A program made the position numbers and the translations under genes. The notes beneath the pieces were generated by a model. It did not search any database, was not told the origin of the DNA, and saw only the letters and a program-made list of their open reading frames with translations. From positions 1,818,501 to 1,882,500 of the forward strand of contig NZ_CP087114.1 of assembly GCF_022559585.1 (NCBI RefSeq): a DNA stretch of 64,000 nt. Direction: 5' to 3'. Positions 19,171-23,548 of the stretch are shown one piece after another. Position 1 is the first letter of the stretch. Each line of letters opens with the position of its first letter. This DNA comes from Bartonella machadoae (GTDB lineage: Bacteria > Pseudomonadota > Alphaproteobacteria > Rhizobiales > Rhizobiaceae).

Positions 19171-20905
<1,735 letters not shown>

Positions 20906-21449
20906 AAACTTAGCGTGTTACTCCACTAGTCATATCTTTACCGCACATCAATTTCTTTGGACGGTTTTTAACTGTTAAATTATGCATGAACAAACTTTGT
21001 AAAACACATATAACAGTAAAAATGCATGACGATACAAGCAAAAAACAAAAGAAAAAGCTGAAATGCTTTACTTGAAAAGAGGGATTACACGTCATTTTAA
21101 GAATGATATTTGAGATATCTTTTTCCCATATTGAAGCTTATACTGTTGGCTATTTTAACTCTACAACGAAGAAACAATTCTTTTGGGATATTATAGTTAT
21201 CTCCATTACTAAAAAGTTTTTATATACTCATAAGATTCACACTATTTAACTCAATTTATGAAGCTAAAAATGAGCCCTTTATAAAAACGATACCCTTTAA
21301 TCAAACTTTTTTATTTTGCAATGATCATTGTAATCCAAAGCTTCTCACATATTATGTGCCCCAAATTGTTAGACACTCATAAAATTTATGAAAAATTTTT
21401 CTACCATCTTCTAAGATATTCATATTTTTAAAAGCTTATTTCAAAAGCT
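20906..21449. other. Spacer between the aminotransferase gene and the small-RNA candidate
   Basis: No gene or clear repeat was recognised in about 540 bases. A minus-strand frame of 61 codons (20910-21095) has no ribosome site and no recognisable product. Confidence 0.4.
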
Positions 21450-21475
21450 AAAAAAAAGCCGGACAAACGTCCGGC
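21450..21475 (-). terminator. Rho-independent terminator of the small-RNA candidate
   Basis: A perfect 7-bp stem, GCCGGAC/GTCCGGC, with a 4-base loop is followed on the minus strand by eight T (plus strand A run 21450-21457). Confidence 0.9.
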
Positions 21476-21562
21476 AAATTTGGAAAATCTCCAGAGATAA
21501 AATCAATCTAGTAGACTTTCATAAGGGAACACTCAAGAAAATGCAATGGGAGGCAACATAAT
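21450..21562 (-). ncRNA. Candidate AbcR-family (alpha-r15) small RNA
   Basis: On the minus strand, about 100 bases after the lsrB-like stop, a TATTAT -10-like box (21574-21569) is followed by about 110 bases ending in a strong Rho-independent terminator: GCCGGAC/GTCCGGC (21475-21458) and eight T. No open frame lies inside. The body carries CUCCCA (complement of 21547-21552) and UUCCC (complement of 21525-21529), the two anti-Shine-Dalgarno motifs I recall for AbcR RNAs, in the right order and at the right total length. AbcR genes in several Rhizobiales lie beside lsrB/vtlR, which regulates them. The transcription start is estimated. Confidence 0.65.
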
Positions 21563-21660
21563 CAAGAGATAATACTCTATGTCATTTTATCAGAAAAAAC
21601 ACAATAAAGACTTTAGCGCATCAGCTATGCAATAAACACATAGCTTAAAATATGATATCA

Positions 21661-22566
21661 TTAAAAAGACCACTGACGCGCTTTTAAAAAAATATAATCT
21701 CGAAAAGCTTTCAACTTTGCCAAATTCTTTAAAGCATAAGGATAACAAAAAAAAGTATCAAAGGAGGGAATATCAACCATATCAGGAAAAAGACGCACGA
21801 GTCGTTCATCGTTATTCACAATATAATCAGGAAGCACAGCGATACCAAGGTCACACATAATTGCATTCTTGATTGAAATAATATTATTGATTCGCAACAC
21901 TGAAAAACGCAAAGAACCATCACTTCTACCAGCCTTTTCCAACCAATTCAAACCAGATAAATAGGAGGGCACAGGTTCACCAAATGAAATAATACGATGT
22001 GCATCCAGCTCAGACAGTGTTTCTGGTTTACCGTAATTTTCAATATAATTTTTTGAAGCATAAACATGCATATGAATTGTAAAGAGTTTTCTTTGGATAA
22101 GATCGGGTTGTTGGGGCTGATGTAAACGAACAGCACAATCTGCCTCACGCATCGTCAAATCAAGTTCTTTATCATCAAACAAGAGTTGAACCTGTATATC
22201 GGGATACAGACTGAGAAATTCTGGCATACGATCTACAAGCCATCCCGCCCCCATTCCAAAGGTGGATGTAATACGTAAACTCCCTGTTGGCTTTTCACAA
22301 CTTTCGCTTAATTGTGAGCGTGCACTCTCAAGCTTCATTAAAACATCATGGGTTGTACGATAAAGAATTTCCCCCTGTTCTGTTAAAATTAACCCACGTG
22401 CATGACGTTGAAACAAGGAGACACCAACCTCTTGCTCTAGAGCCGAAACCTGCCGTGAAATTGCTGATTGTGATAAATGAAGCTTTTGCGCCGCATGAGT
22501 AAAAGAACCTGCTTCCGCGGCAGCATGAAAAACCCTCAATTTATCCCAATCCAACGGTGATGTCAC
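21661..22566 (-). CDS. lsrB: LysR-family regulator, LsrB/VtlR type
   Basis: This 301-residue LysR regulator has an N-terminal helix-turn-helix (residues ~5-63: AAEAGSFTHAAQKLHLSQ, SAISRQVSALE) and a periplasmic-binding-protein-like effector domain. It starts with GTG at 22566, preceded by AAGAGG, and follows trxB by 28 bases on the same strand. trxB-lysR pairing is the arrangement of rhizobial lsrB and Brucella vtlR, regulators of oxidative stress, surface polysaccharide and AbcR small RNAs. Cysteines occur at 90, 144, 238 and 274. Positions 144 and 238 resemble two of the three redox cysteines reported for LsrB (146, 238), while a cysteine near 172 is absent. Orthology rests on neighbourhood and should be confirmed by phylogeny. 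Confidence 0.85.
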   Translation of the reverse strand: MTSPLDWDKLRVFHAAAEAGSFTHAAQKLHLSQSAISRQVSALEQEVGVSLFQRHARGLILTEQGEILYRTTHDVLMKLESARSQLSESCEKPTGSLRITSTFGMGAGWLVDRMPEFLSLYPDIQVQLLFDDKELDLTMREADCAVRLHQPQQPDLIQRKLFTIHMHVYASKNYIENYGKPETLSELDAHRIISFGEPVPSYLSGLNWLEKAGRSDGSLRFSVLRINNIISIKNAIMCDLGIAVLPDYIVNNDERLVRLFPDMVDIPSFDTFFCYPYALKNLAKLKAFRDYIFLKARQWSF

Positions 22567-22594: not shown

Positions 22595-23548
22595 TCATGC
22601 TTGTAGATCTAAGAAACGTTCTGCCTCCAATGCTGCCATACATCCTCTTCCCGCCGCTGTTATAGCTTGGCGAAAGACTTCGTCTGTTACATCACCTGCA
22701 GCAAAAACCCCAGCAATGCTTGTTGCTGTTGAATCTGGTACTGTCCATAAGTATCCACCACGTTTTTGTTTCAATTGTCCTTCAAATAAAGAAACAGCCG
22801 GATCATGCCCAATAGCAATAAATATTCCCTCCGCATTCACCTTCATTTCTTGACCGGTTTTCACATTTTTAAGGCGAGCACCCGTGACAACGGCTCCTCT
22901 TGAATCCTGCGCTGGCAAACCAACAATTTCCTCTACAACATGATCCCAAAGAACACGAACATTATCACAAGCAAGCAATCTATCTTGCAAAATTTTCTCT
23001 GCTCGGAAATAATTGCGCCGATGAACCACGCTTACACTCTTCACCAGATGCGATAAATAAAGGGCTTCTTCAATAGCTGTATTTCCTCCTCCCACAACAA
23101 TGACATCCTTACCACGATAAAAAAAACCATCGCATGTAGCACAAGCAGACACACCACCACCCATAAAAGTCTGTTCGCTTTCCAAACCAAGCCATCGTGC
23201 CTTCGCTCCCGTTGCAATAATGAGCGCATCACAACAATATTGTGTCCCAGAATCCCCATATAAAATAAAGGGGTATTTTAATAAATCAGCCTTTGTGATG
23301 CTATCATAGACAATTTCTGTTCCCATATTTTCGGCTTGTTTTGCCATTTGTTCCATCAACCATGGCCCTTGAATTGGATCGGCAAAACCTGGATAATTTT
23401 CAACATCCGTTGTAATCGTCAACTGTCCGCCCTGTTGTAAACCAGTAACGACAACCGGTTTAAGCATTGCTCTTGCTGCATAAATCGCTGCCGTATAACC
23501 AGCTGGACCTGAACCAAGTATGAGCAGACGAATATGCGATTGTGCCAT
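22595..23548 (-). CDS. trxB: Thioredoxin reductase
   Basis: This 317-residue cytoplasmic flavoprotein passes electrons from NADPH to thioredoxin. Motifs in order: FAD-binding GSGPAGYTA (12-20), the redox-active pair C136-A-T-C139-D, NADPH-binding GGGNTAIEEA (~153-162) and the C-terminal FAD contact AAGDVTDEVFRQA. Length is normal. ATG follows GAAGGGGATGCT. It leads a two-gene unit with the LysR regulator downstream. Confidence 0.97.
   Translation of the reverse strand: MAQSHIRLLILGSGPAGYTAAIYAARAMLKPVVVTGLQQGGQLTITTDVENYPGFADPIQGPWLMEQMAKQAENMGTEIVYDSITKADLLKYPFILYGDSGTQYCCDALIIATGAKARWLGLESEQTFMGGGVSACATCDGFFYRGKDVIVVGGGNTAIEEALYLSHLVKSVSVVHRRNYFRAEKILQDRLLACDNVRVLWDHVVEEIVGLPAQDSRGAVVTGARLKNVKTGQEMKVNAEGIFIAIGHDPAVSLFEGQLKQKRGGYLWTVPDSTATSIAGVFAAGDVTDEVFRQAITAAGRGCMAALEAERFLDLQA

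Follow-up and report, generated by a model that had tools for sequence, protein, structure and literature searches.

A probable AbcR small RNA beside lsrB/vtlR in Bartonella machadoae and its apparent erosion in related lineages

A compact unit on the minus strand of a 64 kb stretch of the Bartonella machadoae genome (the whole stretch analysed, which we refer to as the window) is very probably the Bartonella orthologue of AbcR (Rfam ar15), an RNA known in related bacteria as switching off nutrient-uptake messages. We have high confidence in the reading as a whole, in which this unit is the orthologue of the AbcR that adjoins vtlR in Brucella and lsrB in Sinorhizobium, is probably activated by LsrB/VtlR and would repress mRNAs via two motifs, M1 and M2. 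The RNA is a member of a known family, here apparently without annotation; to this come a promoter change specific to its group and losses that follow a pattern.

The regulator gene and its neighbourhood

The features of the locus are as follows.

22595–23548, minus strand: thioredoxin-disulfide reductase gene, synteny anchor (TIGR01292, 386.8 bits, cut-off 343.45)
21661–22566, minus strand: gene for the LysR-type regulator LsrB/VtlR, GTG start, 301 amino acids (69–71% identity to Brucella/Phyllobacterium-group relatives; Pfam)
21624–21644, no strand assigned: palindrome GCTATG-N9-CATAGC (ATG-N9-CAT, of the form T-N11-A), putative LsrB/VtlR operator
about 21450–21571, minus strand: probable AbcR-type small RNA (ar15, R1, fold z-score, base-pair counts)
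about 21568–21532, minus strand: hairpin 1
21547–21552, minus strand: M1 motif CUCCCA, within the hairpin 1 loop (predicted 0.94 unpaired)
21525–21530, minus strand: M2 motif GUUCCC, in the segment joining hairpins 1 and 2 (predicted 0.95 unpaired)
about 21520–21483, minus strand: hairpin 2
21450–21475, minus strand: intrinsic terminator (the terminator hairpin), a 7-bp stem at 21475–21458 followed by T8

The unit directly follows the regulator gene, as the sequence-only reading had placed it, and a convergent aminotransferase gene (19703–20905) lies on its other side. The regulator matches Pfam HTH_1 and LysR_substrate, both over their cut-offs, and the residues SQSAISRQ in the recognition-helix region do not vary among 20 LsrB proteins compared. 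A thioredoxin-disulfide reductase gene also adjoins vtlR in Brucella melitensis (PMC12595884). In loci L020, L022–L027, L029, L030 and L032–L036 about 0.3–1.6 kb of extra DNA separates lsrB from an intact palindrome-plus-RNA block.

Fold, motifs and ends of the unit

That same reading had seen a strong terminator, the motifs CUCCCA and UUCCC and a stretch free of open frames, and each of these is borne out: one terminator-like site was found against 0.1 expected in shuffles, both motifs are present and predicted to be unpaired, and the unit has no long frame, its sole short ORF being eight codons and not conserved. For the 119-nt strand the folding energy is −33.3 kcal/mol, compared with a shuffle mean of −18.3 kcal/mol (z −5.55), and none of 200 shuffles was as stable. 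Mean identity to 16 Bartonella relatives, in 20-nt bins, is 0.78–0.98 over 21560–21461 and 0.37–0.67 from 21440 on.

The fold has three hairpins, the last being the intrinsic terminator, and the base-pair counts come from an alignment of 28 sequences (A2); another alignment (A1) puts hairpin 2 out of register from group to group, hence the covariation claim rests on A2. Standard pairs fill 98.9% of the A2 pair cells, as against 34–52% in slid controls, and five pairs have changed on both sides, where shuffles average 1.2 and none of 500 reaches five; the count of further pair types was not above shuffles (272/500). Compensatory changes, named beforehand as a check, occur in hairpins 2 and 3 and are lacking in hairpin 1, whose pairing goes without covariation support because it is nearly invariant. 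Hairpin 1 is also weak, at −7.2 kcal/mol compared with −10.2 to −11.3 in B. tamiae, L039 and L044 and −14.6 in L055 and L068.

Homology would put the 5′ end near 21570, rather than near 21562 as first proposed. The proposed −10-like box is a weak point, three promoter-like sites in 401 bp standing against 2.1 expected; the sole site on the strand of the RNA has its second hexamer (21563–21558) inside the conserved RNA, and promoter hexamers could not be assigned.

Covariance-model evidence for AbcR

Rfam at its gathering scores listed no match anywhere in the 64-kb window. At a relaxed threshold, ar15 (RF02345) was the best match in 21000–22000, spanning the full model at 21454–21570 on the minus strand with 27.6 bits (E 0.0022); the suggested covariance-model check therefore returned the expected family at a score under its gathering score of 40 bits, a value that is a detection threshold and no biological feature, and by this copy alone the curated score is missed. 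In the 2.7 Mb window genome (G000) this place is the only ar15 match listed to E 1 (E 0.0014, stricter filters; 44 of 109 first-look candidates scored), while a search to E 0.001, in which all 109 were scored, returned none, as it did in 14 control genomes. Listed to E 1, three of the 14 controls also match, none of them over the cut-off.

What decides the identity of the window copy is that the ar15 matches of its syntenic relatives exceed the cut-off. At the corresponding place, 14 of 71 Bartonella genomes score 50.9–59.5 bits, and among the 18 loci given to a synteny check (six B. apis-type/B. tamiae, three outgroup and nine from the window's group), ar15 exceeded the cut-off immediately after lsrB in 6/6, 3/3 and 0/9, respectively. 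Descent from the ar15 gene beside lsrB/vtlR can be followed through a series at one syntenic place, from the window through the B. tamiae/B. apis-type loci to the Brucellaceae group. The covariance match, the syntenic relatives over the cut-off, both motifs and the conservation together support the AbcR-type RNA that had been proposed beside lsrB/vtlR. At its curated cut-off, the Rfam model misses the Bartonella branch to which the window belongs. A side observation concerns L072, a contig titled Bacillus subtilis SK6B4, whose lsrB-AbcR locus is nearly identical to that of Pseudochrobactrum; the assembly is probably mislabelled or contaminated.

The unit resembles Brucella AbcR2, which adjoins vtlR, and AbcR1 in having trxB and vtlR as neighbours, three hairpins and equally placed M1 CUCCCA and M2 GUUCCC motifs (PMC5461406, PMC12595884), the two motifs having been defined in Brucella (PMC5461406); the VtlR target is named abcR1 in PMC7143759 and abcR2 in PMC12595884. 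It differs from that pair in that one copy was found instead of two, hairpin 1 is weaker and the strict VtlR box is missing upstream, and in the M1 region the window copy reads GCCUCCCA where non-Bartonella rows read CCUCCUCCCA. Similarly, Sinorhizobium meliloti AbcR1 and AbcR2 (alpha-r15; Rfam RF02345 ar15) lie beside lsrB, measure about 114–120 nt, expose anti-Shine-Dalgarno motifs and end in an Hfq-type terminator (PMC7143759, PMC3712013), whereas they form a tandem pair where Bartonella has a single RNA, and the window copy is under the family cut-off. As far as its texts were accessible, the Bartonella literature on AbcR, VtlR, LsrB and small RNAs yielded no description of a Bartonella AbcR, which does not establish that none is in print; a B. 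henselae RNA-seq paper reports Brt RNAs (PMC5387305).

Distribution and copy number

The window's group comprises the window and loci L001–L037 and provides 37 units, L037 being without one, whilst the B. apis-type/B. tamiae group (L038–L048, several loci from MAGs) was assigned by lsrB similarity. The former is blood-dwelling; B. apis, B. choladocola and B. apihabitans are honey-bee bacteria. A covariance model (R1) trained on 28 units of the window's group only gives the window unit 147.3 bits, this copy being part of the training set, and, of 71 Bartonella genomes, picks up the RNA in 68 at E ≤ 0.1, training species included, two of the 68 being weak (32.8 and 31.3 bits). Three genomes of 1.4–1.5 Mb (G002, G007 and G008) have neither an R1 nor an ar15 match, yet the similar-sized G046 (1.4 Mb) retains the RNA. 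Of the 48 named Bartonella loci, 47 have an R1 match, the exception being L037 (B. bacilliformis), including all 11 of the B. apis-type/B. tamiae group (80.8–95.4 bits), and so do 20 of 32 non-Bartonella lsrB loci (41.3–56.6 bits); absence from the other 12 is not to be read from this, as R1 is Bartonella-specific.

Multiple AbcR copies per genome are usual in Rhizobiaceae and Brucellaceae, without being a requirement of the family (PMC3712013). A single AbcR had been suggested for this genome, and one copy is what we found, within the sensitivity of the ar15 (listed to E 1) and R1 searches. A second R1 match in the window genome (21.1 bits, E 0.30) covers this terminator region again, read from the opposite strand, and of the second R1 matches in 7/71 genomes six share the terminator only and one is low-complexity; we discounted all of these. 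Weak second ar15 matches occur in two genomes, G006 and G049 (E 0.08 and 0.22). Separately, pattern matches in the window genome (G000:C1, about 44–84 kb and 96–136 kb) recur at a constant offset of ~51.9 kb (44359/96250, 60342/112234, 80103/131995), as would be seen with a large direct duplication or a pair of near-identical mobile regions.

A palindrome at fixed spacing upstream

The palindrome is centred ~64 bp before the probable RNA start. Palindromes of the form T-N11-A at about −65 are usual for LysR-type activators, and this one agrees in both form and distance. The pattern GCYATG-N9-CATRGC has one exact match in the genome and nine places with one mismatch, the reversed-pattern control having eight; allowing two mismatches proved too loose (214 places vs. 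114). Wherever the palindrome has no more than one mismatch, it lies 72–75 nt before the unit, a spacing held even where ~0.3–1.6 kb separates the block from lsrB.

The VtlR box of Brucella and Agrobacterium is GCAT-N3-TG-N3-T (PMC7486931), also given as its reverse complement CAATGCAGCCATGCA (PMC12595884), and it falls on the palindrome's right half together with flanking sequence. In the window the strict box is absent, its last T being C. It is present in all 11 B. apis-type/B. tamiae units and all 20 non-Bartonella units and in none of the 37 in the window's group, while the palindrome (N8 or N9) occurs in 10/11, 13/20 and 32/37, respectively. Compared with the Brucella and Agrobacterium box, the TG-N3-T part is degenerate in the window's group, the full ATG-N9-CAT palindrome being kept instead. 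As SQSAISRQ is invariant in the 20 proteins, it is the operator that changed, and not obviously the LsrB protein.

Proposed mechanism, targets and rival explanations

The palindrome at about −64 is probably the site from which LsrB/VtlR activates the RNA. Probably with the help of Hfq (the genome has an hfq gene, 109.4 bits), the RNA would expose unpaired M1 and M2, which may pair with the Shine-Dalgarno or early coding regions of mRNAs, ABC-transporter messages perhaps among them, and so repress them. Complementarity to transporter genes was compared at nine genes of the SBP_bac_5 and SBP_bac_3 families, where the mean duplex energy, computed with no accessibility term and with mechanically set ORF starts (that of L206 looks wrong), was −15.2 kcal/mol; the 37 window ORFs used for comparison (all of a set of 38 but ORF 48–899) averaged −16.5 kcal/mol, so that the nine genes show no enrichment (one-sided p 0.79). 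GGGAGG before ATG occurs 62 times on the forward and 62 on the reverse strand vs. 37 and 28 in the control, as is expected for Shine-Dalgarno sites. The sequence TGGGAGGCAA, a ten-nucleotide complement of the M1 region, stands before ATG in 31 of 71 genomes (three control matches); of 30 loci listed, 11 belong to a single site that recurs ahead of a 15-codon frame, probably within another gene, and three are the start of an MFS_3 exporter gene, read in the window genome (L240:886–2498, G000:C1 from about 250886) and in L216 and L237; a fourth genome shares the matched letters.

The lack of extra complementarity at the nine SBP genes, the MFS_3 site in these four genomes and the longer survival of M2 than M1 would all fit an RNA that is AbcR by descent with shifted targets, acting on messages other than ABC-transporter mRNAs, such as that of the MFS_3 exporter, or mainly via M2. 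We regard such a shift as a possibility of the lesser kind, since the test covered nine genes in two families without accessibility, pairing beyond start regions is known for AbcR RNAs (PMC7143759, PMC7486931), and a site in 4/71 genomes is no conserved target. A role as the 3′ end of the lsrB message, retained for its terminator and no separate gene, would agree with the shared strand, the 90 bp between the lsrB stop and the unit in the window and a promoter not above chance; it is improbable given the loci listed above, where palindrome and unit stay together across the gap to lsrB, and the mapped starts that S. meliloti AbcR1 and AbcR2 have of their own (PMC7143759). Least credible is a small peptide: the eight-codon ORF does lie over M1 in the window, but a frameshift breaks it in L013, its ATG is replaced by ACG in the B. 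apis-type/B. tamiae rows, and pairs in hairpins 2 and 3 are preserved through both-side changes.

Erosion of the RNA in Bartonella lineages

The hairpin and CUCCCA, whose absence from related genomes would have counted against the first reading, are kept in most relatives. Of 37 units in the window's group, 30 keep M1, 33 keep M2 as UUCCC (32 as GUUCCC) and 32 keep the palindrome; M1 is lost in seven and M2 in four, and M2 is never lost while M1 is kept. L007 (Bartonella sp. DB5-6) and L019 (B. clarridgeiae) have lost M1 alone, L017 (sp. A05) has lost M1 and has a palindrome one base off, and L018 (sp. WD12.1), L021 (B. melophagi), L028 (sp. G70) and L031 (sp. AR 15-3) have lost M1, M2 and the palindrome altogether. 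These counts are not independent events, because the lineages are related. In B. bacilliformis (L037) there is no recognisable unit, whilst lsrB is open over 301 codons. A putative relic after its lsrB was unconvincing, alignments to L017 and L001 barely exceeding 300 shuffles and those to L021, L018 and L019 not doing so. A B. bacilliformis small-RNA survey has neither "AbcR" nor "ar15" in its main text (PMC7717549), as would be expected if the gene is gone in that species. By comparison of these loci, the RNA seems to be in the course of being lost in some Bartonella lineages.

A wider reading joins these patterns: the true VtlR operator would be the T-N11-A palindrome, the published box covering one of its halves and a flank, and in the window's group the palindrome alone would be left; the single AbcR would be a natural experiment in loss, M1 going first, then M2 and the operator together; and lsrB would outlive the RNA, in which case VtlR must have another output worth keeping, e.g. 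DUF1127 genes. To this reading, taken jointly, we give even chances. Two neighbouring DUF1127 genes (L166, G000:C1:2410691–2413801) each have GCATATCT[A/G]TTAT 95–98 nt upstream, one of them a strict VtlR box, and this pair may represent further LsrB/VtlR targets; DUF1127 genes are a VtlR target class in Brucella (PMC12595884).

Bartonella relatives appear to show the two pairing motifs of AbcR lost in a consistent order, and the outlasting of M1 by M2 agrees with the result that Brucella infection requires M2 and not M1 (PMC5461406). With the palindrome, the VtlR operator becomes open to a direct test. AbcR RNAs have been described as multi-copy and partly redundant, and as Bartonella seemingly has one copy, a single deletion would reveal the function of the RNA.
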